A stretch of DNA of 64,000 nucleotides from NCBI GenBank assembly GCA_024998595.1, contig JACOEK010000001.1, forward strand, positions 434,001 to 498,000, given 5' to 3'. Made by a program: the position numbers and the translations under genes. Each line of letters starts with the position of its first letter. Position 1 is the first letter of the stretch. This document shows, piece by piece, positions 14,191 through 33,883 of the stretch. This DNA is from Nitrospira sp. Lineage in GTDB: Bacteria; Nitrospirota; Nitrospiria; Nitrospirales; Nitrospiraceae. Under the pieces are notes generated by a model. That model did not search any database and was not told where the DNA came from. It saw only the letters and a program-made list of their open reading frames with translations.

Positions 14191-15330
14191 ATGGACAATG
14201 TCTTGGTCGCGCATTCGGGGCAATCAAACCAATCCGTCACGGGGTGGGGGGCATCGCTGGTCTTTCATGCCTGCCTTGCGCTGGTGGCATTTGGTCTCAT
14301 GCCGAAGATGACGGTCATGGAGAAAGAGCCGTTCAAGTGGGACGTGGCCCTGGTCGAACCAGCCCGCGAGGTGGCGCGTCAGCCAGAACCGGCCCCGGCG
14401 CCGCAGGTCCAACCTCCTGCGCCGACACCGGTGAAGCCACGACCGCAACCGGTACGTGCGGTAGAGCCACCACCTCAGCCGGTGCAGCGGCAGGTGGAAA
14501 CAAGAGTGCTTCCGCAGGCCGTTCAACGTGAAGTCCAGCCGGTGGTCGAGACGGTTCGTCCGCAAGAACAGATCCAGCCGAAGCAGGAAATCGTGCAAAT
14601 GCAGGCGAAGCCGGTCGAACCGCAAGAAGTCCACAAGACCGAACCGGTGATGCAAGCCGCGGCCCCGGCCGAAGTGCAACGTGAAGTGGCGCCGGTGGTT
14701 GAGCAGCAGGTGATGGAAGCCCCTCCGGTCACGGCCCAGACGTACCAGGCGCAACCGGTCGTCAGCGAACCTGCCGTGGTAGAGACGCGGCCCGAACCGG
14801 TTGTGACGGCAAGTGCACCGGTGGTGCAGGCTGCTCCGGCGGCTGAAACGGCTCCCCAATATCCACCATCGGCCGTGGAGGCAGTGGCCGCAGTCAGTGA
14901 GCCGGTCGCTGCGCCGTCGGCCCCGGCAGAACTGGTGGCTGCACCGCCCGCTCCTGCCATCGCAGCCCAACAAGACCCGGCCAAAATGGAACAGCATCAG
15001 GTTGTCGCGAGCGCGGCTGCTCCGAAAAGGGCAACGAGCGCGGATTACAAATGGGTGGGAGACTCGTTGCACCGCCGCATTAGTGAGTTGCGGCACTACC
15101 CCAGCACGGCCCGCTTGAATGGCTGGGAAGGGAAAGTCGTCTTGAAGGTCTCCATCCGTCACGACGGGCACCTCAACAGTGTCGAAGTGGTGAAAAGTTC
15201 AGGGCATGAATCGTTAGACCAGGCGGCGATTGAGGCCGTGCGGCGCGCCTGTCCGCTACACATGAAACATGAATTGTCGTCGGAGATGGTCGTGCTGAAT
15301 CTACCGGTCAATTACAGCTTGAACCGATAA
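14191..15330 (+). CDS. tonB: TonB energy-transducing protein
   Basis: 379 residues. An N-terminal membrane helix (GASLVFHACLALVAFGLMP), a very long periplasm-spanning Pro/Glu/Val/Gln-rich region (residues ~55-275), and a C-terminal TonB domain (LRHYPSTARLNGWEGKVVL, then GHLNSVEVVKSSGHESLD and AVRRACP). It transmits proton-motive energy from ExbBD to the outer-membrane receptors; the exbBD genes lie 11 kb downstream. The rigid linker is longer than in E. coli TonB (239 aa total). Followed after 13 nt by the BNR-repeat gene. Confidence 0.9.
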   Translation: MDNVLVAHSGQSNQSVTGWGASLVFHACLALVAFGLMPKMTVMEKEPFKWDVALVEPAREVARQPEPAPAPQVQPPAPTPVKPRPQPVRAVEPPPQPVQRQVETRVLPQAVQREVQPVVETVRPQEQIQPKQEIVQMQAKPVEPQEVHKTEPVMQAAAPAEVQREVAPVVEQQVMEAPPVTAQTYQAQPVVSEPAVVETRPEPVVTASAPVVQAAPAAETAPQYPPSAVEAVAAVSEPVAAPSAPAELVAAPPAPAIAAQQDPAKMEQHQVVASAAAPKRATSADYKWVGDSLHRRISELRHYPSTARLNGWEGKVVLKVSIRHDGHLNSVEVVKSSGHESLDQAAIEAVRRACPLHMKHELSSEMVVLNLPVNYSLNR

Positions 15331-15343
15331 GGCAGGTGTAGAA

Positions 15344-16657
15344 ATGCGCGCCAAGGGAAAACGAGATGCACAGATGTTCCGTCGTCCGGGAGTGATGGGC
15401 GGGTTGCTCATGTTGGGCCTCAGTCTGTCGAGCATTGCGGCGATGGCTCGAGCCGAGTCCCCCGCGGCCCTCGACCTGGGTCAGAAATTCACGACGGAGC
15501 ACAAAGTAAAGAGCCTGGTGGGGCCGTCGGTGCAAATCGATGACGCGGGGTCGTTGTCGTTGGCCTGGATGGAAGAGAACAAAGAGGTGCGCTCTGTCCT
15601 GTATGCCAGAAGCACGGAGCCGGGCGGGCCCCCGGGCGCGCCGGTGCGCATCAATCGTTCAGAGGACGTCCCCTATTGGAGACAGGAAGCGCCGGCGCTC
15701 GTCGTGCAGGGGAATGACGTGTTCGTGACCTGGGGGCTCGCCCATCCCAAAGCCACCGCCGAACAGCCGTTTGCGACGGAGTTGCGCCTGAGCCGTTCGA
15801 ATGACGGCGGCCGGACATTCCAGCCGTCGATAGTGGTGAATGACGATCCGGGTGTCATTCAGCATACCTTCGATGCGCTCCATCGCGATGCAGAAGGACG
15901 ATTGCATCTGTCCTGGATCGATGGCCGCGAAGGCAAGAAAGATCCCGGCACCTATGTCGCGCGCTCGTTGGATCAGGGGCAGACGATTACGAAAAATGCC
16001 AAGGTGGATGAAGGCACTTGCGTCTGTTGCCGCACGGCCATTGCCAGCGGTCCGGACGGAATGGTCTATGTGGCCTGGCGGAAGATTTTTGAAGGAAACG
16101 TGCGGGAGACCGTCGTCGCGCGCTCCACGGACCATGGCGACACATTCGAACCGTCGGTCATCGTGGGCCATGACAACTGGGTCTTTCCAGCCTGCCCGCA
16201 TCGGCCGGCCTCCATGGGTGTAGACCGGCAGGGACGGTTGTATGTGGTCTGGTACACGGAAGGGACCGATGAAATTCCCGCCGTCTATCTGGCCTTTTCC
16301 GATGACCGAGGCCGGACGTTTTCACCGAAGCGGCAGTTGAATGTGTCCAAGAACACCTTCCCTGACCACCCGCAGATCGCCGTCGATCCCGAAGGACGCC
16401 TGGTCGTGATCTGGGAGGAGCAGGGGCCGGTCAAGCGTGATGTGGTGATGAGTGCGTCCATGGATCGGGGGGCGACCTTCGTTGCGCCGCAGAAGCTGAA
16501 CGAGCGAAAAAGTCAGACACCGGTTGTCGCGGTCAATCGGCACGGCCTGTTTGCCATGGCCTGGATGGAGCATGGGATGCCGGGCCATAAACTTGTCACC
16601 CAGACTCTTCGAATGCCGGCCGTGACAGCGGCCGCTGATGCAGGCCCGTCACGTTAG
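15344..16657 (+). CDS. Secreted BNR-repeat (sialidase-fold) protein
   Basis: 437 residues with an N-terminal signal (GGLLMLGLSLSSIAAMARA). The remainder shows repeated Asp-box-like motifs of a six-bladed propeller: SNDGGRTF, SLDQGQTI, STDHGDTF, SDDRGRTF, SMDRGATF. The catalytic Arg triad and Tyr of true sialidases cannot be confirmed, so enzymatic activity is doubtful. It carries an unusual TCVCC motif and a further Cys in VFPACPHRP, possibly a metal site. ATG 15344 with AGGCAGG upstream. Lies in the TonB cluster and overlaps no other gene. Confidence 0.75.
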   Translation: MRAKGKRDAQMFRRPGVMGGLLMLGLSLSSIAAMARAESPAALDLGQKFTTEHKVKSLVGPSVQIDDAGSLSLAWMEENKEVRSVLYARSTEPGGPPGAPVRINRSEDVPYWRQEAPALVVQGNDVFVTWGLAHPKATAEQPFATELRLSRSNDGGRTFQPSIVVNDDPGVIQHTFDALHRDAEGRLHLSWIDGREGKKDPGTYVARSLDQGQTITKNAKVDEGTCVCCRTAIASGPDGMVYVAWRKIFEGNVRETVVARSTDHGDTFEPSVIVGHDNWVFPACPHRPASMGVDRQGRLYVVWYTEGTDEIPAVYLAFSDDRGRTFSPKRQLNVSKNTFPDHPQIAVDPEGRLVVIWEEQGPVKRDVVMSASMDRGATFVAPQKLNERKSQTPVVAVNRHGLFAMAWMEHGMPGHKLVTQTLRMPAVTAAADAGPSR

Positions 16658-16670
16658 GAACGTGTGCGTG

Positions 16671-17201
16671 ATGCGATCGAGATTGTTGCAGACCCTCGCC
16701 TTGTGTATGTCCATCGGATTCTGGTTCGGGCCTGCGGTCGCCGACGATCGGCTAGCCGCACTAAAGGTCGGGCGGGTTGCATCGGGGACCATGGCGGCGC
16801 CGTTTGAGTTGAAGTCCCTGGACGGCCCAGCGGTGGAACTCGCGCACTTAAAAGGAAAAGTCGTCGTGGTGAACTTCTGGGCCACCTGGTGCGGGCCCTG
16901 CAAAGAAGAAATGCCGGCCTTCGAGCGCTTACGCCGGCAGCTGGATCCCGACCGGTTCGCGCTGCTCACGATCACGACTGATCTGCAACGGCAGGGCATC
17001 AAACATTTTCTCGCCTCTCTCCACGTGCAGTTGCCCGTGTTGTTCGATGAGGATCAAGCCGTGTCTCAAGCCTACCTCGTGCGCGCCTTGCCGACGACGG
17101 TGTTTATCGACCAGCAGGGACTGTTGATCGGCCGCGCGGTCGGACCCCGTGAGTGGGATGCGCCGGCTGCGGTGCAGGCATTACAGAGTCTGATGCCATG
17201 A
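16671..17201 (+). CDS. TlpA-like periplasmic thioredoxin
   Basis: 176 residues: signal peptide (LLQTLALCMSIGFWFGPAVA), then a thioredoxin fold of the AhpC/TSA-TlpA class with active site WATWCGPCKEE and the cis-Pro segment ALPTTVFID. Such proteins reduce disulfides in exported proteins, commonly in cytochrome c or copper-centre maturation. ATG 16671 has AGGAA 9 nt upstream; an ATG at 16638 would overlap the preceding gene. It ends in an ATGA overlap with the next small gene, so translation is coupled. Probably keeps the neighbouring Cys-rich proteins reduced (inference). Confidence 0.85.
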   Translation: MRSRLLQTLALCMSIGFWFGPAVADDRLAALKVGRVASGTMAAPFELKSLDGPAVELAHLKGKVVVVNFWATWCGPCKEEMPAFERLRRQLDPDRFALLTITTDLQRQGIKHFLASLHVQLPVLFDEDQAVSQAYLVRALPTTVFIDQQGLLIGRAVGPREWDAPAAVQALQSLMP

Positions 17202-17518
17202 TGCGTGTCACGAAACCACCCGTCGGACTCGCGGCTGCGCTGGCAGGGCTCTATCTGATTCTGGCCGTCTTCTCCGTTGCCTGTGTGTTCGATCATGTCG
17301 ATCCGACACCGGCCGCCCACCACCATGGCGGAACGGTGTCTCATTCCAGCTTCTGTGCCTGGGCCTGTCAGGCGAATCCCACCCCGGATGCCGGCCCCGT
17401 GGCGTTGTTACTGCAACCGTTTTTCGTGGCGACGCTCTTTGTCGAGACCAGCCATGCCATCATCGCGGGAGGTGGTGGCTTCCACACTGCCTCTCGTGCG
17501 CCGCCTATTCAGTCGTAA
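17198..17518 (+). CDS. Small Cys/His-rich membrane protein, DUF2946-like (copy 2)
   Basis: 106 residues. A first hydrophobic segment (AALAGLYLILAVFSVACVF), a periplasmic HHHGG-HSSFCAWACQ loop, a second hydrophobic stretch (ALLLQPFFVATLFVE) and a RAPP tail. The pattern His cluster, CxWxC, RAPP is shared with the proteins at 13156 and 39801. The start overlaps the TlpA-like stop by four bases. It directly precedes a TonB-dependent receptor, which suggests handling of the imported metal at the inner membrane; this is inferred. Confidence 0.65.
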   Translation: MMRVTKPPVGLAAALAGLYLILAVFSVACVFDHVDPTPAAHHHGGTVSHSSFCAWACQANPTPDAGPVALLLQPFFVATLFVETSHAIIAGGGGFHTASRAPPIQS

Positions 17519-17627
17519 CTCCTTTTTATATCGCTAGGTCGTCTAGCTTCTCTTCTCGTCCGTTCAGACAGGGGCGCGAGAGGATTGTCTCTTCTGTCGT
17601 GTGCACAGTTGTGCCGGGAGGATGTGT

Positions 17628-19964
17628 ATGTGGGCCCGCCGTGATTCATTCAGACTTCATGCTTTTATAAGTTGTGCCTTGCTGGCGGCCATTCCGGTGA
17701 CCGTTGTGCCCTCATTTGCGCAAGAGGAGACGGCAGCCGGGGCTGTTGTGGAGAAAAGCGCGCGGGAGCGCGACCTGCGCGACCAGCTGCAGAACATTCT
17801 TCGCGAGTTGGAAGAGTTGCAGCAGCAACCGGCACCAGGAGCGGCAGCGCCTACAGCCCAGCCGTCTGTCGTGAAGGAATCGCCGGAGACCAAAGCATCG
17901 GAGCCGATCCCGCAATATGACCTCTCCGATGTGAGCATCGTGAGCGATCGTGTGCAGCGACGGCCCGAGGGCTTGTCGATGTCGTCGACCGAACAATCGG
18001 AGACGGAGTCCCAGCCGACCAGGACCATGAAGGAATCGATGGAGTCATTGCCTGGAGTGGTACTGCGACAGGCCAACGGTCCCCGCGACTTCAGCATGAT
18101 GATTCGCGGCCAGGGCGCCAAAACAGCCTTCGCCGTGCGGGACATCAAAATGTACGAAGATGGCTTTGTCCAGACTCAATCAGACGGGTTGTCACGTTTG
18201 GATATTCACGATCCCTGGTTCATGCGTAGCGTGGAGGTCACCCGGGGCGCATCCTCGTCGCTCTATGACAACTACGCGCTCGGCGGCATGGTGCATTTCC
18301 GGACCAGACGCGGGAGCGACATCAATGGGGTCGAGACGTTCCTGAGCGGCGGTTCGTTCGGGTACCACAAGGAGGGGATCGCGGTCGGACAGCAATACGA
18401 AAATCTCGATGCCTCGTTGTTCGTCAGCAACGTGGGCGAAGACGGATTTATCAGAAACAGCAGTTACAACACGCAGACCATCAACCTGAATCTGCGCTTC
18501 AAAATCGACGACAAGCAGAACTTCTACTTCAAGGCCATTACGAATTGGCTGGATGCGCGGGTGCCGACCCGTCTCACTCAGGCCCAGTTCAACGCCGACC
18601 ACCGGCAGGCCGGCGGAACCAACGTGGTCTGTAACGCCAACACCTGTAGCGATGCCGAGCGGCTGGCCCAGCGGCGTTTGGATCGGCGCACCATCATCGG
18701 CGGTATCTACGAACGGCAGATCAATGCCAATACCGTCTTGACGATCGAGGCTGATTACGACGTGAAGGACATCAATCAGACGTTTTCCCAGATCAGCGAC
18801 AATGTGAATCCGAACTATAAACACTACGCCGATTTGCGGCACGACGGACGCCTCTTCGACATGCCGTTGCGGAGTTATGTCGGGTTCTTCCTGAGCAATA
18901 TGGAACAGGAAGCGCAGACCTTTCAGAACCTCGCCGACGGCTTCGGCACCCGCGGCGCACTCCTTCAAAACTCACGCGGCACGATCAGAAATGTCGGTGG
19001 CCGGTTCAGGGAAGAACTGGAATTTATCCCGAAGGTCACACTCGCAGCCGGATTGGGATTTGAACAGTCTCAGCTGAGCGTGCAGTCGATCGGGTACACG
19101 GGCGGCGCCGTGAGCAGCCGGGCGGGCGCCGATCGTAGTTACACCAATTGGGCACCGGAAATGTCGGTCACCTGGAAGCCGACCGACGCACAGCGGCATT
19201 GGGTGCGGGCCTCGACCGGTTATGGCATTCCGGGATTTGCCAATCTCCTTAGAGATCCGGTAACGGGGCAGCCGGGTACCAACTTCGATTTGAAGCCGCA
19301 GAAGAATCTCAACTTCGAAATCGGGACCGAGTCCAAACTGACGAAGACCCTCACCGTGCAACTCGTGGGGTTCTGGACCTTCTTCAAGGATGAAATCATC
19401 ACGCAGGCGGTGTCGGGTAACAACACGGCGTCGGTCAATGCCGATTCGTCTCAGTACAAGGGAATCGAAGCGTTTTATGACTGGCGACCGATGGAAGGTC
19501 TGCGCTTGTCCGGGGCCTATACCCATATCGAGGCGAAGTACGTCAACTTTGCCGACCGCCTGAATACCGCCGCCGGTTTCCTGGTGCGGGATGGCAACAA
19601 AGTGCCAAACGTGCCGACCGATGTGCTGAACACGAAGGTCGCCTATGACCACGCGGCCACCGGCTGGGGCGCGTGGATCGAGGGCAGTTATTACAACAGT
19701 TACTTCCTGAACAACAGCAACACGTTCGGGATTCCTTCCTACATGATTGCGAACGTCAATGTGCACAAGAACTTCGATCTCAAAAATTCCTGGTTCCGCT
19801 TCGCAAAGTTCTACATCGAGTTGGATAACATTGCCGACAAAAAATACGCCGCTTCCGGGCAGGTCATCGGTGGAGAGACTGCCGGGGCTGCCGCAGGCCA
19901 ACAGGCGTTCTTTGCCGGCTACGGCCGAGCGATTTACGGGGGTGTGACGTTCGGATTGTTCTAA
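17628..19964 (+). CDS. TonB-dependent outer-membrane receptor (1)
   Basis: 778 residues. Signal peptide (FISCALLAAIPVTVVPSFA), an unusual N-terminal coiled-coil extension (residues ~40-75, RERDLRDQLQNILRELEEL), a Pro/Ala linker, a TonB-box-like LSDVSIVSD, the plug domain (ESLPGVVLRQANGPRDFSMMIRG) and a beta-barrel ending in VTFGLF. ATG 17628 has GGGAGG at ideal spacing; earlier starts would bury it. Immediately downstream of TlpA-like and Cys/His small genes and of tonB itself. Substrate not evident from sequence; copper or another metal complex is a guess from context. Confidence 0.85.
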   Translation: MWARRDSFRLHAFISCALLAAIPVTVVPSFAQEETAAGAVVEKSARERDLRDQLQNILRELEELQQQPAPGAAAPTAQPSVVKESPETKASEPIPQYDLSDVSIVSDRVQRRPEGLSMSSTEQSETESQPTRTMKESMESLPGVVLRQANGPRDFSMMIRGQGAKTAFAVRDIKMYEDGFVQTQSDGLSRLDIHDPWFMRSVEVTRGASSSLYDNYALGGMVHFRTRRGSDINGVETFLSGGSFGYHKEGIAVGQQYENLDASLFVSNVGEDGFIRNSSYNTQTINLNLRFKIDDKQNFYFKAITNWLDARVPTRLTQAQFNADHRQAGGTNVVCNANTCSDAERLAQRRLDRRTIIGGIYERQINANTVLTIEADYDVKDINQTFSQISDNVNPNYKHYADLRHDGRLFDMPLRSYVGFFLSNMEQEAQTFQNLADGFGTRGALLQNSRGTIRNVGGRFREELEFIPKVTLAAGLGFEQSQLSVQSIGYTGGAVSSRAGADRSYTNWAPEMSVTWKPTDAQRHWVRASTGYGIPGFANLLRDPVTGQPGTNFDLKPQKNLNFEIGTESKLTKTLTVQLVGFWTFFKDEIITQAVSGNNTASVNADSSQYKGIEAFYDWRPMEGLRLSGAYTHIEAKYVNFADRLNTAAGFLVRDGNKVPNVPTDVLNTKVAYDHAATGWGAWIEGSYYNSYFLNNSNTFGIPSYMIANVNVHKNFDLKNSWFRFAKFYIELDNIADKKYAASGQVIGGETAGAAAGQQAFFAGYGRAIYGGVTFGLF

Positions 19965-20028: not shown

Positions 20029-20223
20029 ATGAACAAGCAACTCTTGCGCGTCGGAGAAGCAGCGGATGTCTTAGCGGTGAGCCGTTGGACGATTTACCGG
20101 TGGGTAGAGGACGGCCGGTTGGAAGGCACCAAGATCGGCCGTGGCAGCCTCCGGGTGTTTCGCGCGTCGCTGGATCGGCTGGTCCAAAGCAACAAGACGC
20201 ATGAAATGAACCTGGTTCAATGA
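20029..20223 (+). CDS. Small MerR/excisionase-type HTH DNA-binding protein (1)
   Basis: 64 residues, the size of a lone HTH_17 domain. Motif LLRVGEAADVLAVSRWTIYRWVEDGRLEGTKIGRGSLRVFR gives the winged helix-turn-helix of the excisionase/MerR superfamily. Excellent ribosome site AAAGGAGAT. Close paralogue at 40494 shares LLRV-EAA-LLxVSxWTIYRW. Its stop overlaps the amidohydrolase start (ATGA). Likely a local transcription regulator of the uptake genes; not an excisionase, since no integrase or phage genes are near. Confidence 0.8.
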   Translation: MNKQLLRVGEAADVLAVSRWTIYRWVEDGRLEGTKIGRGSLRVFRASLDRLVQSNKTHEMNLVQ

Positions 20224-21635
20224 CGAACCGGGGCACGAGCCAGCGAATGGCCGGAAGAGAATTCGCGGGCCTCCGCGGCCTCCGCGCCATGTGGTGTCTG
20301 CTCGCGGTGGTGCTGGTCGCGCAGGCGTCCGGTTGTGCGGGCATTTCGGTCACGCAGCTGGAGAAGCAATATGTCTTCGTCAACGGCCGATGGTTCGACG
20401 GCGAGGGCTTTCAGCCGGATACCTGGTATGCGGTTCAGGGACGCCTGACCCGGCAGGCCCCGTCCGGGCCGGTTGAGTCCGTAGATCTCTCCGGCCTCTA
20501 CCTGGTCCCGCCATTTGGCGAAGCGCACAACCATAACGTCGAGGGACCGTGGAATGTACAGGCGGTCGTGCAGCGCTATCTGCAGGACGGAGTGTTTTAC
20601 GTGAAGAACCCGAACGACGTGCGGGACTTCGCTCAACAGATCACGCACGCCATCAATGTGCCGACGAGTATCGACGCCACCTTTGCGCATGCCGGTATCA
20701 CGGGGCGCGGCGGACACCCCATTGCCTTATATGAAGATGTGTTGCGAGTGGGGCGGTATGAACCGGCAGTCGGGCCGCTCGGACGGGGGTGGTTCGAGAA
20801 TCGATCGTATGTCGTAGTCGAGACGGAGGCCGATCTGGAAGCCAAGTGGCCGATGATCGTAAGCGGTCGTCCTGATTTTCTCAAAGTCTATCTGGTGCAT
20901 TCGGAAGACGACGGGGCGGAGGTCCAGGCCGGTCAGCACAGGCTGGGGCTGCATCCCGCATTGGTGCCCGGCATTGTCGCGCGCGCGCGCGCGGCCGGCC
21001 TCCAGGTGACGGCGCATGTCGAAACGGCGGCCGATTTCCGACAGGCGGTTCGCGCCGGGGTCGACGAACTGGCGCATGTGCCGGGGTGGCTGCTCCAGGG
21101 ACCGCAGGATGCGGAGCGTGCCCGATTGACAGAGGAAGACGCTCGCGTGGCGGCCGCCAATAAGGTGCGAGTCGTCACCACCAGCGTGGCGGGACAGGCC
21201 ATGCCCTCCCTCGGCGGGTATCACCAGCATGGACATCACTCAGGGCATGGGCCCGGGCCGGAGGGTGCGGCTTCTGACGTGTTGCGAGACAATCTCCGGC
21301 TGCTGCAGGGGGCAGGGGTGTCACTGGTAATCGGCAGCGACCATGCGGAGACGTCGCTGGCCGAGGTACTACATCTGCGTACCTTGCATCTGTTCGATAA
21401 TCGCACGCTCCTCAAGATGTGGTGTGAGGCGACACCGGCGGCCATCTTTCCTAAGCGTCGTATCGGAAGGTTTGCCGAGGGGTACGAAGCTAGCTTTCTC
21501 GCTTTGGCGGGGAATCCTATTGAAGATTTTGAGCAGGTGCGAGCCATTCGTAGAAGGTTCAAACAGGGAGTGCCGTTGGACGGCGCCCTGATGAAGGACG
21601 CTGCTTGGTCGGCAGCGGGGCAGCGAGGTCATTAG
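20220..21635 (+). CDS. Lipoprotein amidohydrolase with His-rich loop
   Basis: 471 residues. An N-terminal hydrophobic helix ends in a lipobox (AQASGCAG), placing the enzyme on a membrane facing the periplasm. Amidohydrolase-fold metal ligands are visible: HNHN (residue ~102, HxH), later His in TAHVET and ELAHVPGW, and the Asp in VIGSDHAETS. A loop GGYHQHGHHSGHG (residue ~340) is rich in His and could bind additional metal. Substrate unknown. Translationally coupled to the HTH gene and followed by a TonB receptor, so it may process a compound linked to uptake. Confidence 0.8.
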   Translation: MTNRGTSQRMAGREFAGLRGLRAMWCLLAVVLVAQASGCAGISVTQLEKQYVFVNGRWFDGEGFQPDTWYAVQGRLTRQAPSGPVESVDLSGLYLVPPFGEAHNHNVEGPWNVQAVVQRYLQDGVFYVKNPNDVRDFAQQITHAINVPTSIDATFAHAGITGRGGHPIALYEDVLRVGRYEPAVGPLGRGWFENRSYVVVETEADLEAKWPMIVSGRPDFLKVYLVHSEDDGAEVQAGQHRLGLHPALVPGIVARARAAGLQVTAHVETAADFRQAVRAGVDELAHVPGWLLQGPQDAERARLTEEDARVAAANKVRVVTTSVAGQAMPSLGGYHQHGHHSGHGPGPEGAASDVLRDNLRLLQGAGVSLVIGSDHAETSLAEVLHLRTLHLFDNRTLLKMWCEATPAAIFPKRRIGRFAEGYEASFLALAGNPIEDFEQVRAIRRRFKQGVPLDGALMKDAAWSAAGQRGH

Positions 21636-21710: not shown

Positions 21711-23969
21711 ATGAAGTGGAGTCATTGTGTCGGCATCGTGGGAATTGGATCGTTGGCAGTGGTGTTGTTGGGCAGTCTGCAGCCGCCCGCCGCGCGCGCG
21801 GGTGAAGAGCCGCCTGAGCAGGACGCCCCGGTAGTGGCGGTAGAGCCGGTGGAAGTCAGTGGAAAGCGCATTGAAAACGTTCAGGATGTGAAGCAGGAAC
21901 TTGCTCGCCGACCAGGCAGCAATATTCTGATCGAAGAGAAACAGATTACCGAGTCGCGGGCTATCAATCTGCAAGACGTCCTGCAGTTTGCGCCGGGCGT
22001 CCGGTTCCAATCACGGTTTGGTGCCGATGAAGGCCAGTTTCAGATCCGCGGTACGACGCTCCGCACCAACTACCATCATCGCGGCATCAATATTCTGATC
22101 AACGGGATCTTCTTCGGCGACGCGGACGGATTTTCCGACTTCGAATCGATCGACCTCATGGCCTATGAACGGATCGAAGTCTATAAAGGCGCTAATGCGC
22201 TACGGTACGGTGCCAACAGCATCGGCGGCGCCATCAATTTTGTGCCGCGTACCGGTTATAGCGCCTCGACGTTGCAGATGCGGATGCTGGCCGGCAGCTT
22301 CGGCATGGTGAGCGGGCAGGTGTCGAGCGGCAAAGTCACTCAGCCCTTCCAGGTCGGCAGTATGAATGCGACGATGGACTATTACATCAGCGTGTCCGGG
22401 AACCGGCAGGACGGGTTCCAGGACAACAGTCAGCAGGCCCGCGAACGCATTAATGCCAACATCGGTGTGCAACTCGGCAACCATCAGGAAATCCGAGCGT
22501 ATTTTCTGCAGGCGAACGTCGCAGAACGGCTGCCCGGCTCACTGACCAATGAGCAGCTGTTTTTCAATCGCCGACAGGCGGGAGGTCAAAGCCCTCCCGG
22601 AGCGCCTCCGTTTTTTGCCTGTGTCACGAACAACCAAACGTGTACCTGGGGGCGCTATTACAACCTTCAACGGATCGGCATCGCGTACCACAATGAATTT
22701 GCGCCCAATCAATACTTTGAAATCATTCCCTACTTCTCGAATCAATACGAGGATCACCCGATCTATCAGACTCTCCGAATGCATTCTTACAATGTTGGTG
22801 GTGAACTCCGCTATGTGAATTCGAATTCACTGTTTGGCAAGAACAACTCGTTCGTCATGGGCTTCCAGCCGCGCTATGGCGACCAGCGGCAAGATCGGTA
22901 TGTGAACATCAATGGGAGTATCGGGGCTTTAACGAATAGCTTTAGGGCGAAGAGTACCTATTTCGGAGCCTACGCCGAAGATGCGTTCGATGCCACGAAG
23001 GACTTCACGATCGTGGTCGGCGGTCGGTGGGATTATACGACTCGCCAGGCGACGGTGGATAACTACGGGCCGGCCGGCAATCCGTTCAACCCGGCGACGC
23101 CCTCCACACTGACCGGTACGCAGCGGCCGTTGCAACATTTCGATGCGATCAATCCGAAGCTCGGATTCGTCTATCGTACGACGCAGACCTCGCAGCTCTA
23201 TTTCAACGCCAGCCGGGCCTATGAGGCACCGATCAACATCGAATTGCTTTCTTCGTTCAATGCCAATGGCTCGCCGAACACCGGATTCCTGAATCTGGAT
23301 GCGCAACGCGCCTGGCAGTTGGAATTAGGGCATCGGGGCACGTCCGCGGACAAGCGGTACAGTTGGGACGTGACGGTCTACAACCTAGAAATGCAAAAGG
23401 AACTTCTGACCACGATCATCAATAATACCGGGACCTTTCAAAATGCCAACGGCACCAGGCACACCGGCGTCGAGGCCGGCGGCGGTATGGTCCTGAAGAA
23501 GGGGCTCTTCGTGCAGGGAGGAGCAGGGAAGGAGGATAGTCTGCAGACTAGGGTGGCCTACACTTGGTCGCGCTTCAAGTTCACCGACGATGTGCGCGGC
23601 GGCGGGATCGGCGGCCCCAACGTGCTCATTGCGAAAGCCGGAAATACCGTGGCCGGCGCGCCGGAGCACAGCTTGAACGTGGAGGCTCGCTACGATCATC
23701 CGGCTGGTTGGTGGATCGCGCCGAATATCGAGTGGTCCATGTCCGGGTTTTATACAGATTATTTGAACACGATCAAGAATCCGTCCTACTTCGTGGTCAA
23801 TCTGCGGTCCGGCTATACCATCAACGATCATTGGATCCTCTTCGCCGAAGGGCGCAACCTGACCGATAAAACCTATGCCGGGGCGGTGGTCGTGAACGAC
23901 CAGTTCAATCGATTTGCCAACGCGGCGTTGGGTATCAGTGGGTTTGCAGGCGTCGAGTACAAGTTTTAG
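21711..23969 (+). CDS. TonB-dependent outer-membrane receptor (2), FecA-like
   Basis: 752 residues with a signal peptide, a TonB-box-like VAVEPVEVSGKR, a plug (LQDVLQFAPGVRFQSRFGADEGQFQIRG, then MAYERIEVYKGANALRYGANSIGGAINFVP) and a full 22-strand-type barrel ending in GFAGVEYKF. The plug resembles Fe-dicitrate/siderophore receptors. ATG 21711 lies after GAGGGC. A 30-nt hairpin follows at 23990. In a unit with the HTH and amidohydrolase genes (75-nt gap). Ligand cannot be read from sequence. Confidence 0.85.
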   Translation: MKWSHCVGIVGIGSLAVVLLGSLQPPAARAGEEPPEQDAPVVAVEPVEVSGKRIENVQDVKQELARRPGSNILIEEKQITESRAINLQDVLQFAPGVRFQSRFGADEGQFQIRGTTLRTNYHHRGINILINGIFFGDADGFSDFESIDLMAYERIEVYKGANALRYGANSIGGAINFVPRTGYSASTLQMRMLAGSFGMVSGQVSSGKVTQPFQVGSMNATMDYYISVSGNRQDGFQDNSQQARERINANIGVQLGNHQEIRAYFLQANVAERLPGSLTNEQLFFNRRQAGGQSPPGAPPFFACVTNNQTCTWGRYYNLQRIGIAYHNEFAPNQYFEIIPYFSNQYEDHPIYQTLRMHSYNVGGELRYVNSNSLFGKNNSFVMGFQPRYGDQRQDRYVNINGSIGALTNSFRAKSTYFGAYAEDAFDATKDFTIVVGGRWDYTTRQATVDNYGPAGNPFNPATPSTLTGTQRPLQHFDAINPKLGFVYRTTQTSQLYFNASRAYEAPINIELLSSFNANGSPNTGFLNLDAQRAWQLELGHRGTSADKRYSWDVTVYNLEMQKELLTTIINNTGTFQNANGTRHTGVEAGGGMVLKKGLFVQGGAGKEDSLQTRVAYTWSRFKFTDDVRGGGIGGPNVLIAKAGNTVAGAPEHSLNVEARYDHPAGWWIAPNIEWSMSGFYTDYLNTIKNPSYFVVNLRSGYTINDHWILFAEGRNLTDKTYAGAVVVNDQFNRFANAALGISGFAGVEYKF

Positions 23970-23989
23970 ACCGCGGTCCGTTTCGCTAG

Positions 23990-24019
23990 TGCGGGGCTCG
24001 TCTGATGATGAGCCCCGCA
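23990..24019 (+). terminator. Probable terminator after receptor 2
   Basis: TGCGGGGCTC, 10-nt loop, GAGCCCCGCA: perfect 10-bp GC-rich stem 20 nt after the stop. Lacks a good T-run, so termination strength is uncertain. Confidence 0.55.
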
Positions 24020-24175
24020 GACTGCAGAAAGTTTCCCCTGCGATACAGGTGTAACCCTTTGCGACATCCGCTTGCCTAAAAAATGGGATGGACGACCGTC
24101 ACGCGAACATGTGATAACTGAATCCGTCGGGTATGACCCCGGATGGGCATGTCCTGGTAACTGTAGGGATAGACC

Positions 24176-26149
24176 GTGCCGGCCATCTACGGACTTGTCA
24201 CTGTTCTGCTACTTGTCTGGAGCCTGGTGCCGGTCTACGCCGAGTCCGGTTCTGCATCACCGCCCACCGCGGCGTTCGCCTCGCTTCCCCTCATTGAATC
24301 CATTCAACTGTCCCCCTCCGGTCGGCATCTGGCGGTGCTCCGCAATCATGAAGGGCACACGGTTCTCGATACCCAAACCGTTGCGGGACAAGATGTGCAC
24401 CGTGCTGTCTCGACGGACAATCGTGAATACATCATTACTTGGTTTCGCTGGGTCAATGATGAGCGGCTGCTGGTGAGTATCCGGTTCGCGGCCACGCGGA
24501 ATGCGATCGACTCGATCGAGACTCGGTTGTTGGCGGTGAATCGCGATGGGTCAGGACAAACCGCCAATTTGTTCAAGCAGGGCGCTTTTTCATCGATTTT
24601 CGGACAGAAACATTTTCCTCAATTCCAAGATCAGCTGGTCGGCACGATTCCCGGTGATCCCAAGCACGTATTGATCGCCCTCGATCTGGAGCACCCCAAT
24701 GCTCCGGATGTCTACAAGGTGGACGTGTACTCCGGCGATCGGCAATTGGTCCAGGCGAATCCTAGTTCTCAACCGGACACCAGGGCGATTTTGCAGTGGA
24801 TTGCCGATCGGGCAGGGAACGTGCGTGCGGGGGTGGGCCAATTCCAGACGACCGTGCATGCGATCTTCAAGCAGCCGGAGTCCAATCTCTGGCGCGAATT
24901 GGCCGAGTATGACCTGGCAAAAGAAACCGGGCTCGTACCCTTGGCCTTCGATGCCGATCCCGCCTGGCTCTATGTGAGGGATCAGCATCGGGGCAAAGCA
25001 GCGATTTTTAAGATCAATGTGGTAGACCGCGCGGCGGATCGTATCCTCGTGGTGGCCGATCCGAAGTATGACCTGACCGGTGAGTTGGTCTATGCGCCGG
25101 GACGCAAGAAGGTGGTCGGCGTTCGTTACAGCAGGGCGGATGAGCGGGTGCTTTTCTGGGACTACGACGCCCAGCGTTTGCAGGCGCGCATCGACCGGGC
25201 GCTTCCGGGATCGGTCAATGTCATTCACAGCAGCAGCGACGACGGGCGGCTGCATATCGTGAAGTCGAGCGGTGCGGCGCATCCCCCGCGATGGTCGGTC
25301 TTCGATGAGCGCGACGGACGGATGGTGTTGCTTGGCAAGTCGTACCCCGATCTTGAGACGGCCGCGCTGTCTGCTCCTACCACGACCTATGTGACGGCGC
25401 GGGACGGCAAGGAGCTGCAGGTCTTCCTGACCGTTCCCAAGGATCGGGACCCGCGCCAACTTCCGATGATTGTATTTCCTCATGGCGGCCCTGCCTCGCG
25501 ATCGCCAGGTGCCTACAACTATTGGACGCAGTGGTTTGTCAGTCGCGGTTGGGCCGTGCTGGAGCCACGCTTTCGAGGCACCGAAGGGTATGGAGACGAA
25601 TTCCTGCGTGTCGGATTTCAACGCTGGGGCCTGGAGATGCAGGACGACCTGACCGATGCCGTGCAGTACGCCATCCGCTCCGGCATCGCTAATGCCAACC
25701 GTGTCTGTATCGTCGGATCGGGCTATGGAGGGTACGCTGCGCTGATGGGCGCCGTGAAGACGCCGGATCTCTATCGCTGCGCCGTCAGCCTGGGCGGGGT
25801 GACGGACTTGCCGCAGGTCGTATCCGATAGCCGTTGGTATTTGAATCAGAAACCAATGGTCGAGTTACGAATCGGTTCCTGGTGGAACGATCGGGACCGG
25901 CTTCGCGAAACGTCCCCCATTTCTCACGCGCGGGAGATTCGCACCCCGCTGCTGTTGATGCACGGCCTTATGGATCGTTCCGTGCCGGTCTCACAGAGCC
26001 GTGACATGGCCGATGCGCTGAAGGCGGCGAATGTGACGAGCTATCGATACGTGGAATTGCCCCTCGCTGATGAAGCCTTTCGCCGAGAGGAGGATCGTCT
26101 GCAGGTGTTCTCAGAGTTGGAGCAGTTCCTCACGCAGTACCTCGACTGA
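24176..26149 (+). CDS. S9 prolyl-oligopeptidase-family protein, probably catalytically inactive
   Basis: 657 residues with a signal peptide (YGLVTVLLLVWSLVPVYA), a beta-propeller-like N-terminal part, and a C-terminal alpha/beta-hydrolase domain (FPHGGPASR, RGTEGYGDEF, HGLMDRSVP). The nucleophile elbow reads IVGSGYGGYAAL where active relatives have GxSYGGY, so the Ser position is Gly. Near the C-terminus LADEAFRREEDR replaces the usual His-containing GDH-LSREEDR. Only the Asp in HGLMD remains. GTG 24176 has AGGGA upstream. Likely a binding or regulatory pseudo-peptidase, between receptor 2 and exbBD. Confidence 0.75.
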   Translation: MPAIYGLVTVLLLVWSLVPVYAESGSASPPTAAFASLPLIESIQLSPSGRHLAVLRNHEGHTVLDTQTVAGQDVHRAVSTDNREYIITWFRWVNDERLLVSIRFAATRNAIDSIETRLLAVNRDGSGQTANLFKQGAFSSIFGQKHFPQFQDQLVGTIPGDPKHVLIALDLEHPNAPDVYKVDVYSGDRQLVQANPSSQPDTRAILQWIADRAGNVRAGVGQFQTTVHAIFKQPESNLWRELAEYDLAKETGLVPLAFDADPAWLYVRDQHRGKAAIFKINVVDRAADRILVVADPKYDLTGELVYAPGRKKVVGVRYSRADERVLFWDYDAQRLQARIDRALPGSVNVIHSSSDDGRLHIVKSSGAAHPPRWSVFDERDGRMVLLGKSYPDLETAALSAPTTTYVTARDGKELQVFLTVPKDRDPRQLPMIVFPHGGPASRSPGAYNYWTQWFVSRGWAVLEPRFRGTEGYGDEFLRVGFQRWGLEMQDDLTDAVQYAIRSGIANANRVCIVGSGYGGYAALMGAVKTPDLYRCAVSLGGVTDLPQVVSDSRWYLNQKPMVELRIGSWWNDRDRLRETSPISHAREIRTPLLLMHGLMDRSVPVSQSRDMADALKAANVTSYRYVELPLADEAFRREEDRLQVFSELEQFLTQYLD

Positions 26150-26235
26150 CCAGGCTTCCTACATCCTCCACGCTGACTCGCAGTCCGATTGTTGTCTTCA
26201 TCCTAGTCTCCCGTTCCTGTGTTTTCCTTCGAACT

Positions 26236-26288
26236 GTAGCAGCCGTGAGCAGCTGCCAGTAGACGGCCTGCGCCTCCCGTCGTAACGT
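26236..26288 (+). promoter_or_regulatory. Shared promoter/operator, copy 1 (exbB-exbD)
   Basis: GTAGCA at 26236, GTGAGCA at 26245, GTAGAC at 26259, then 18 nt to TAACGT (-10, 26283-26288). Box spacing is identical to copies 2-5. The leader to ATG 26374 is longer here (~80 nt) and can fold CGTAGC (26286) with GCTACG (26324). Confidence 0.8.
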
Positions 26289-26373
26289 AGCGCCGCCGGT
26301 AGCAGCCCGTGTGCCGCATCTCGGCTACGAATAGTGCCGGCAATCGATAAAAAATTGTGAGGACGGCAGAACG

Positions 26374-26799
26374 ATGGAACCGCTGAAAGTCGGAGTGGAG
26401 TATGGGGTGATCGGTCTGTTGGGACTTCTGGCGGTGTGGGCCCTGGTGGTCGCGATCGAGCGATGGCGATTCTATGGTCGGGTAGATCCGTCCAGGTTTG
26501 CCACCGTGCAGACCTTTGAGATGGCATTGACGAAGCGGTTGGTCATCATCGGCACCATCGCAGCGAATGCGCCCTACATCGGCCTACTCGGGACAGTGTT
26601 GGGCATCATGCTCACGTTCCATACCATGGGCACGTCCGGCGCGCTGGCGATCACCACGATCATGATCGGCCTGAGTCTCGCGTTGAAAGCGACGGCGGCG
26701 GGGCTGGTCGTCGCGATTCCCTGCGTCGTCATGAACAACGTCCTCCGGCGGCGCGTCAGCGAGTTGCTCGCTCAGCACAAGGTGCACCATGGAGCGTGA
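26374..26799 (+). CDS. exbB: ExbB/TolQ-family proton channel, short form
   Basis: 141 residues, shorter than E. coli ExbB (244 aa), like the compact ExbB forms of some phyla. Three hydrophobic segments: residues ~8-28, ~45-75 and ~85-120. The signature ANAPYIGLLGTVLGIMLTF contains the family's conserved APxxGLLGTVxGI. With ExbD it uses the proton gradient to energise TonB. ATG 26374; the gene overlaps exbD by 11 nt, showing tight coupling. Confidence 0.88.
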   Translation: MEPLKVGVEYGVIGLLGLLAVWALVVAIERWRFYGRVDPSRFATVQTFEMALTKRLVIIGTIAANAPYIGLLGTVLGIMLTFHTMGTSGALAITTIMIGLSLALKATAAGLVVAIPCVVMNNVLRRRVSELLAQHKVHHGA

Positions 26800-27309: not shown

Positions 27310-27708
27310 GTGAACGATTTCCTTCACGCCATGCATGCCAGCGAACGATCCGGCCGGATCCACCGGCTGGTTGCCTTTCTTGCCTGTCTGCTCATCGGCA
27401 TTCGCTTTGCGGCGGGAATCGTCTGCTCGACCTGCTTTACCGATTGGGAGCAGGCGAAGACACGGGCCTTTTATCTCCATAGCGGGTGGGATCGTGATCG
27501 ATGCCACCATGGGCTGGCTCCGGCCAGCCTGTGGATCGTCTGGGCCTGTTCCGTCAACGAAGATGAATCGGCTTTTGTCCTGCCTGAAATTCCTCGTTTG
27601 CCGGTCGTCGTGTCGTTCTTCGTGCCTCTCGCTTTCCTGGTGATCAGTTATCGTAACGTCACACTAATTGCGGCTAACGGCCGTGGCCCTCCCCTCAGCG
27701 CCTGCTAG
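27310..27708 (+). CDS. Two-TM Cys/His loop membrane protein A
   Basis: 132 residues, GTG start. Helix 1 (FLACLLIGIRFAAGIVC) leads into a loop with CSTCF, FYLHSGWDRDRCHHG and WACSV, then helix 2 (RLPVVVSFFVPLAFLVI) and a NGRGPP tail. Paralogous to the genes at 30486 and 33485: shared invariants are C-x-TCF, LH-x-G-x-DR-x2-CH, WAC-x-V, LP-x-IPRLP and GR-x-PP. The loop is a plausible metal-binding site facing the periplasm. Directly behind an operator copy and in front of a TBDR gene. Family not recognised. Confidence 0.8.
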   Translation: MNDFLHAMHASERSGRIHRLVAFLACLLIGIRFAAGIVCSTCFTDWEQAKTRAFYLHSGWDRDRCHHGLAPASLWIVWACSVNEDESAFVLPEIPRLPVVVSFFVPLAFLVISYRNVTLIAANGRGPPLSAC

Positions 27709-30485: not shown

Positions 30486-30890
30486 ATGAACGGCGTATGG
30501 CGCTCCATGCATGGGGCTCGACAGACGACACGGGGTCCGCTCCTGGCGGTATCCCTCGTCTGCGCGCTCATTGTGATCCGCCTTGCTGCCGCCATTGTCT
30601 GCGCGACCTGTTTTACCGAACTGGAAACGCCGGCGACCCGCAACTTCCATCTCCATGGCGGCGGTGACCGGGAGCCCTGTCACCGCGGGCAGGCCGAAGC
30701 CAAGCCACTGGTCAACTGGGCCTGTTCGGTCAATCAGGATGACAACGCCTTCATCCTGCCGGACATTCCGCGCCTGCCGGTCGTGGTCGCGCTGTTTGTC
30801 CCGCTGGTGGTGTTGCTGGTCTCTTATCGCAGTCTTCTGCTGATTTCGGCCACCGGCCGCAGCCCTCCGCTTTCCGCCGGCGCCTGTTAA
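30486..30890 (+). CDS. Two-TM Cys/His loop membrane protein B
   Basis: 134 residues, paralogue of the proteins at 27310 and 33485. Helix 1 (LLAVSLVCALIVIRLAAAIVC), loop with CATCF, FHLHGGGDREPCHRGQAEA and WACSV, then AFILPDIPRLP leading into helix 2 (VVVALFVPLVVLLVSYR) and a GRSPP tail. The operator-defined transcript begins about 23 nt before this ATG, which confirms the start. Precedes a TBDR gene, as protein A does. Function inferred as inner-membrane handling or sensing of the imported metal; unproven. Confidence 0.8.
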   Translation: MNGVWRSMHGARQTTRGPLLAVSLVCALIVIRLAAAIVCATCFTELETPATRNFHLHGGGDREPCHRGQAEAKPLVNWACSVNQDDNAFILPDIPRLPVVVALFVPLVVLLVSYRSLLLISATGRSPPLSAGAC

Positions 30891-33397: not shown

Positions 33398-33450
33398 GTA
33401 GCATCCGTGAGCAGGAGGTAGTAGACATGAGGGAAGTAGTTTCGTATGGT
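33398..33450 (+). promoter_or_regulatory. Shared promoter/operator, copy 4 (small protein C + PepSY/ABC unit)
   Basis: GTAGCA at 33398, GTGAGCA at 33407, GTAGAC at 33421, 18 nt, TATGGT (33445-33450). The -10 box overlaps an upstream in-frame ATG (33446), so that ATG cannot be the start; predicted transcript start ~33457. Confidence 0.85.
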
Positions 33451-33484
33451 AGGGTGTCTCACACCTAGATCGAAAGTGTGTCTG

Positions 33485-33883
33485 GTGAACGACCTCCTCC
33501 ACACCATGTCTCTCCGTGGGCGAACAGGATGGGCCCCTTCGCCGCTGTTGGCTGTCGCCTGTCTGCTGATCGCCATCCGACTGATTGCAGGGTTCTTGTG
33601 TCACACCTGCTTTATTGATTTCGAAAAGCCGACCTCCAGTAGTTTCCATCTCCACGCCGGGGGTGATCGGGATCCCTGTCATCACGGTCAGGCAGAAGCG
33701 AGCCCGCTGGTGACCTGGGCCTGCACCGTCACGCAGGATGAAAGCGCATTCATCCTCCCGGACATTCCGCGATTACCACTGCTCGTGTCCCTCTTCGTGT
33801 CCCTCACGGTTCTGGCTCTCTCTTTCGGTGGCCGCCCGTTGGTGGTCGCTCATGGCCGCGGTCCTCCTGTCTTCTCCAACTAA
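33485..33883 (+). CDS. Two-TM Cys/His loop membrane protein C
   Basis: 132 residues from GTG 33485, whose VNDLLHTM matches MNDFLHAM at the start of protein A. Helix 1 (LLAVACLLIAIRLIAGFLC), loop with CHTCF, FHLHAGGDRDPCHHGQAEA and WACTV, AFILPDIPRLP, helix 2 (LLVSLFVSLTVLALSF) and a HGRGPP tail. Third member of the paralogous set. Unlike A and B it precedes a PepSY membrane protein rather than a receptor, though a receptor lies just upstream. Confidence 0.8.
   Translation: MNDLLHTMSLRGRTGWAPSPLLAVACLLIAIRLIAGFLCHTCFIDFEKPTSSSFHLHAGGDRDPCHHGQAEASPLVTWACTVTQDESAFILPDIPRLPLLVSLFVSLTVLALSFGGRPLVVAHGRGPPVFSN

Follow-up and report, generated by a model that had tools for sequence, protein, structure and literature searches.

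A receptor-linked S9-fold protein of Nitrospira has lost its catalytic serine and is retained under purifying selection

In the present study, an S9-fold protein encoded immediately behind a TonB-dependent receptor gene was found to lack its catalytic serine in every copy read from one Nitrospira genus and to be maintained by purifying selection. The gene lies in a stretch of 64,000 nucleotides from a Nitrospira sp. genome, the whole of which is called the window hereafter. The nucleophile loss, its conservation, the order of the losses, the selection, the shift in constraint and the linkage to receptors were computed, and a binding or regulatory role is a reasonable but putative reading of the protein. 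Taken as a whole, our best explanation, which we hold with moderate confidence, is that the product may be a periplasmic S9 pseudopeptidase serving TonB-dependent uptake, comparable with DPP6 and DPP10.

The open reading frame (24176..26149, plus strand) has a GTG start and encodes 657 residues, comprising a beta-propeller (about residues 30-400) and an alpha/beta-hydrolase domain (about residues 401-657). The product belongs to the S9 (prolyl-oligopeptidase-fold) family by fold; in the Pfam scan, Peptidase_S9 (PF00326) matched residues 451-656 with 126.5 bits (E 1.3e-36; cut-off 22.6). The preliminary description had called the fold and length intact, and this is borne out by an AlphaFold2 model built with 43 sequences (pLDDT 84.3, pTM 0.85), in which the full-length protein, propeller and hydrolase together, fits S9 structures end to end. 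The closest structures come from the acylaminoacyl peptidases (for 5l8s, Z 31.8 and rmsd 3.7 over 575 residues at 18% identity), and this S9C group (5l8s, 1ve6) also provides the top sequence matches (phmmer E 1.6e-28), but its members are active Ser-Asp-His enzymes. A probable Sec signal peptide covers residues 1-22 (24176..24241, plus strand), judged by eye and by comparison with the N-termini of relatives; it ends in LVPVYA with ES following, and its n-region in the window copy carries no positive charge. The mature protein is presumably exported and soluble in the periplasm. A scan of positions 23900-26500 for a promoter or terminator found none.

Two of the three catalytic positions are altered in the window copy. 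First, the nucleophile elbow reads GSGYGGY (residues 514-520; 25715..25735, plus strand), with Gly516 (codon GGC at 25721-25723) in place of serine. Second, the histidine position in the segment LADEAFR (residues 630-636; 26063..26083, plus strand), assigned via an ungapped alignment, is Glu633 (GAA at 26072-26074), and the preceding Gly631 has become alanine. Third, the alignment shows the catalytic Asp600 (25973..25975, plus strand) to be retained. In the model, numbered as the residue minus 29, the elbow residue 487 lies between a strand (481-486) and a helix (488-499), the aspartate (571) follows a strand (563-568), and the last helix is preceded by a loop that contains residue 604. By this topology of strand, elbow and helix, together with the alignment, Gly516, Asp600 and Glu633 are predicted to occupy the usual triad places. 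Because these three residues stand where an active S9 peptidase has Ser-Asp-His, we do not class it with the active S9 peptidases and describe it as an S9-fold pseudopeptidase, which has presumably lost all activity.

The substitution of serine is a property of a clade and not of one damaged gene. Among 29 genomes of the window's Nitrospira genus, 28 have an S9 match and 27 carry the pseudopeptidase; the match in G009 is an active-type paralogue only, and no S9 match was found in the genus survey for G017, which is 84% complete. N. defluvii has an orthologue at 610368-612338 of FP929003. The nucleophile position can be read in 26 of the 27 copies, the remaining one (L025, G008) stopping at residue 425, and serine is absent from all 26, being replaced by glycine in 25 and by aspartate in one (L022, GSDYGGY). 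Asp600 is present in 26/26, and nearly all copies retain the HGG oxyanion-type loop. Position 633 is more variable (Gln in 12, Glu in 8 and His in 6), so that the earlier claim of two missing triad residues, although correct for the window copy, extends to the orthologues for serine and not for histidine, which 6/26 retain. As a control, the triad is intact in 33/33 readable homologues from Alteromonadaceae and plasmids (a 34th row, a fragment without the site, was not counted), and seven intact Nitrospira-family paralogues, about 46-48% identical in their alignment, also keep Ser-Asp-His; the shared loss exceeds chance. Sequencing error is ruled out by the orthologues. Residue 515 is serine in 17 copies and alanine in 9/26, which rules out Ser515 as an alternative nucleophile. 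Beyond the serine and histidine, the changes D448N, Q565R and G631A are fixed in 23/23 full-length copies, Ala540 is kept in none of the 23, and Asn465, Ser469 and Ser608 are mostly lost; the conserved-column count omits rows L107-L110 as well as L077-L079, three rows from plasmids. Several individual copies deserve mention. L063 (G064:C128) lies on a 3.7-kb contig assigned to another genus, although its S9 protein does not differ from that of L018 anywhere along the length of L063; misbinning is possible, and this copy was not treated as independent. Overall identity between L002 (G022) and the window protein is 95%, but the C-terminal ~90 residues of L002 match L003, L010 and L011 instead, a mosaic that suggests recombination or gene conversion within the S9 gene. 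The active-type paralogue of G009 (L028/L073), one of the seven with an intact triad, reads GGSYRGY, with arginine for glycine two residues past the serine, and this remaining S9 copy may be losing activity.

Homologues in other genera allow the losses to be ordered. The triad of L065 (G147) is intact, and this copy lies beside the TonB-dependent receptor gene TBDR1. Its sister L066 (G130), 85% identical, reads GAGYGGY and has lost the serine and kept the histidine; its glycine codon, GGT, is two bases away from the AGC of L065, which also speaks against sequencing error. In L064 (G069), serine has become asparagine and histidine has become tyrosine. On a quickly built tree, made without bootstrap, L065 and L066 group together in a single branch alongside all others (support 100 and 93), and at least two changes are needed to explain the loss of serine and at least four for that of histidine. 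By parsimony, two serine losses tie with one loss and one regain, at two changes each. We prefer two separate losses because L065 keeps 58 of the 61 hydrolase columns conserved in the active enzymes, deviating at only 3/61. The propeller columns 213 and 263, conserved in the active enzymes, are already altered in L065, and the propeller side therefore changed ahead of the triad. Serine was lost first and histidine drifted afterwards. At a further locus (L068, G075:C1, near 3032384), a deletion remnant of the S9 gene encoding only the last ~140 residues stands directly behind TBDR1; since TBDR1 is kept there and most of the S9 gene is deleted, the receptor in this genome can dispense with the S9 protein, which counts against our best explanation.

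The association with receptors is as constant as the loss of serine. Among loci whose upstream DNA extends to 400 bases or more (the window and 25 relatives), a same-strand TonB receptor gene stands immediately 5' of the S9 gene in 26/26, namely TBDR2 in the window and 22 others and TBDR1 in three. The order that recurs at many loci is, in the window and on the plus strand, a TonB-like protein that opens the cassette (14191..15330; named from its sequence and from matches in relatives), a BNR-repeat beta-propeller protein (15344..16657), a TlpA/thioredoxin-like protein (16638..17201), a CruR/DUF2946-like leader ORF (about 17198..17518), TBDR1 (17601..19964), an amidohydrolase that travels with TBDR2 (20220..21635), TBDR2 (21711..23969), which is a distant YncD/PqqU relative, and the S9 gene; the propeller, TlpA-like and amidohydrolase genes were assigned by family scan and from relatives. 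TBDR1 is directly upstream of the S9 gene in L004, L023 and L027 and, in other genera, in L064 and L065. The amidohydrolase and TBDR2 seem to have been inserted later as a pair, because the S9 gene follows TBDR1 directly in L065, L064 and L038. Neither receptor is PqqU itself, an identity ruled out by the scores against NF041535 (183.8 bits for TBDR1 and 138.4 for TBDR2; cut-off 1200). The S9 gene begins 207 bp after TBDR2, and the amidohydrolase gene 255 bp after TBDR1; this spacing makes co-transcription only putative, another point against our best explanation. With regard to the neighbours named in the preliminary description, the TonB receptor proved to be kept, and exbBD did not: exbB and exbD follow the S9 gene in 3/30 loci (the window and 2/29 relatives), and they are rejected as conserved partners. 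This adjacency in 26/26 loci, with the receptor type alternating between TBDR1 and TBDR2, would also fit a protein that is a structural partner of the receptor in assembly, plug function or periplasmic docking and has no ligand itself. We regard this as unlikely, in view of the identity of only about 22-25% between TBDR1 and TBDR2 in their aligned pieces, which makes one common docking surface less likely.

Selection on the pseudopeptidase was measured as dN/dS by the Nei-Gojobori method, with medians taken over pairs. The median is 0.133 for the whole protein (220 of 253 pairs), 0.132 for the propeller (223 pairs) and 0.130 for the hydrolase domain (188 pairs), compared with 0.196 and 0.123, respectively, in five active Nitrospira paralogues; a TBDR2 piece is constrained more tightly (0.055, 143 pairs), which again counts against our best explanation. 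No internal stops were found in the pseudopeptidase across the genus. With dN/dS at about 0.13 in both domains, the gene is under purifying selection and decay is disfavoured, in agreement with the preliminary description. The distribution of constraint between the domains has nevertheless shifted. On a fixed tree with 40 column bootstraps, the ratio of hydrolase to propeller branch length is 1.17 (0.95-1.52) in the pseudopeptidase clade, 0.73 (0.59-0.95) in the active Nitrospira paralogues and 0.56 (0.47-0.67) in the Alteromonadaceae, and the ratio of ratios is 1.58 (1.12-2.04) against the former and 2.08 (1.68-2.49) against the latter. The extra constraint linked to catalysis is gone from the hydrolase domain, yet the domain is retained. 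The loss of this excess constraint speaks against a further reading, in which catalysis persists by other chemistry or by a migrated nucleophile, the alpha/beta-hydrolase site serving, for example, a lyase-like or esterase-like reaction. The invariant Asp600 (26/26), the nearly constant HGG loop, the polar nature of Glu, Gln or His at position 633 and a new Ser541 carried by L066 are all compatible with such an activity. On the other side, Ser515 is alanine in 9/26 copies, the histidine position is not fixed, and Arg442, Asn465, Ser469 and Ser608 vary although they are conserved in the active enzymes; retained chemistry is, in our judgement, distinctly unlikely.

S9 enzymes are frequently oligomeric, and the pseudopeptidase might instead be a regulatory or dimerising partner that modulates an active S9 paralogue. 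Several pseudopeptidase genomes do contain an active-type paralogue (GGSYGGY, GDH; about 47-49% identity), which is located elsewhere, usually beside and mostly divergent from exbBD-tonB. Such a paralogue is found in only 6/27 pseudopeptidase genomes, however, and in G006 (L052, G006:C150) its reading frame is interrupted near the nucleophile by a stop or frameshift; at E<=1e-5, no such paralogue was found in the window genome. Furthermore, the active paralogues appear lipoprotein-like by eye (GGC lipobox) and the pseudopeptidase does not. Since 21 of the 27 carrier genomes have no second S9 copy of the group and one more has only the broken copy, an active partner of the same group is not required, and a regulatory partnership is very improbable. 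Slow decay, in which a dying peptidase gene is kept by chance, is the least credible reading, for although it would agree with the lost triad, the relatively relaxed hydrolase domain and the deletion remnant in G075, the hydrolase dN/dS (0.130) is near that of the active Nitrospira paralogues (0.123) and the reading frame is free of internal stops genus-wide.

Herein, we propose that the dead S9 protein was probably repurposed, most likely for binding cargo imported by the receptor. The ancestor would have been an active S9 peptidase encoded behind a YncD/PqqU-like TonB receptor, within an uptake cassette responsive to metal, probably copper. In the Nitrospira lineage, the catalytic serine would have been lost first, followed by drift of the histidine to Glu or Gln, or its retention as His. 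The protein was retained, most likely as a non-catalytic periplasmic acceptor or scaffold, in which the cleft between the propeller and the dead hydrolase domain may hold the receptor-imported molecule, or the protein as a whole may hold the receptor complex. A narrower version, in which a Nitrospira cargo trimmer behind a copper-responsive receptor became a non-cutting periplasmic cargo binder, with serine lost at least twice at such loci, is offered tentatively as a possible course of events. If this is true, the protein would represent a novel class of binding proteins, linked to receptors and derived from dead peptidases, with a peptide-like copper chelator as a possible ligand. The protein is also a tangible candidate for a part in the metal uptake of Nitrospira, which is central to nitrification. 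Moreover, loci of one kind hold a living series (triad intact, serine lost, serine and histidine lost), so the steps from enzyme to binder are testable.

Among known systems, lasso peptide clusters frequently include a TonB receptor, and Atxe2-type lasso peptide isopeptidases share the S9 fold with the Nitrospira protein, which differs in having lost the triad. Identity with the Atxe2 isopeptidase is ruled out by the score against NF033523 (38.5 bits; cut-off 400), as is identity with the Dpp5 dipeptidyl-peptidase (NF053518, 59.1 bits; cut-off 900). The closest parallel is found in DPP6 (DPPX) and DPP10 (DPPY), mammalian inactive S9B proteins that likewise combine propeller and hydrolase in the S9 fold (PMC4350108, PMC4873792). 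The catalytic serine is aspartate in DPP6 and glycine in DPP10 (GKGYGG; PMC4350108), matching the GSDYGGY and GSGYGGY of Nitrospira, and flies possess an active counterpart (PMC4873792). By the features that mark this kind of protein (S9 fold, serine replaced, orthologues alike), the Nitrospira protein agrees, none of the 26 genus copies having the serine. Unlike the window protein with its Glu633, DPP10 retains the histidine, and DPP6 and DPP10 are membrane-anchored subunits of animal Kv4 channels from a different S9 branch, without a TonB receptor context. Such animal pseudoenzymes are well known; here, the same residue has been lost to the same replacements in a bacterial clade. The triad is described as highly conserved in all bacterial POP subtypes studied (PMC4522959), and 42 inactive serine protease homologues in five families have been listed for 91 prokaryotes (PMC2605481). 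In the open-licence literature, no paper was found on S9 pseudopeptidases, whether in Nitrospira or next to a TonB receptor, and PMC10211241 yielded nothing on S9.

The link to copper comes from the leader ORF ahead of TBDR1, and it is a lead rather than a result. This ORF reads HHH...SHSSFCAWAC...SRAPP near its C-terminus, and it shares with its relatives a His-rich stretch, SHSSFCAWACQAN and, in most of them, an SRAPP followed by a few terminal residues. Of the TBDR1-type genes examined, 17/17 are preceded by a small ORF that has RxPP within its last 22 residues, against a background of 164/5734 size-matched ORFs at the same loci. In Bordetella pertussis, CruR (DUF2946) senses copper via CXXC, stalls at RAPP and controls the TonB receptor BfrG (PMC9426467), and RAPP/RGPP leaders are enriched ahead of TonB receptors (PMC12992588). 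The cruR-bfrG-bp2921 operon likewise begins with a small exported Cys-motif leader with a C-terminal RAPP, followed by the receptor (PMC9426467), but its third gene encodes another type of protein, and that of Nitrospira an S9 pseudopeptidase. The Nitrospira leader has CAWAC (CxxxC) about 42 residues ahead of RAPP, together with HHH, compared with CXXC and a spacing of ~45 in CruR, and its match to DUF2946 (PF11162) is sub-threshold (14.7 bits, E 0.055; gathering score 23.7). Counting this leader, four small Cys/His-rich membrane-type ORFs of the window (17198-17518, 27310-27708, 30486-30890 and 33446-33883), each with R-A/G/S-P-P near the C-terminus, directly precede either a TonB receptor gene or, in one case or more, a PepSY gene, and are similar to translation-arrest leader peptides of the CruR/RAPP kind. 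Among plasmid relatives of TBDR1, the nearest one (L080, on Acetobacter pomorum plasmid pSH1) is preceded by a small RGPP-ending ORF and has folE, DUF1826, a transcriptional repressor, PepSY and SCO genes around it, a neighbourhood hinting at metal control.
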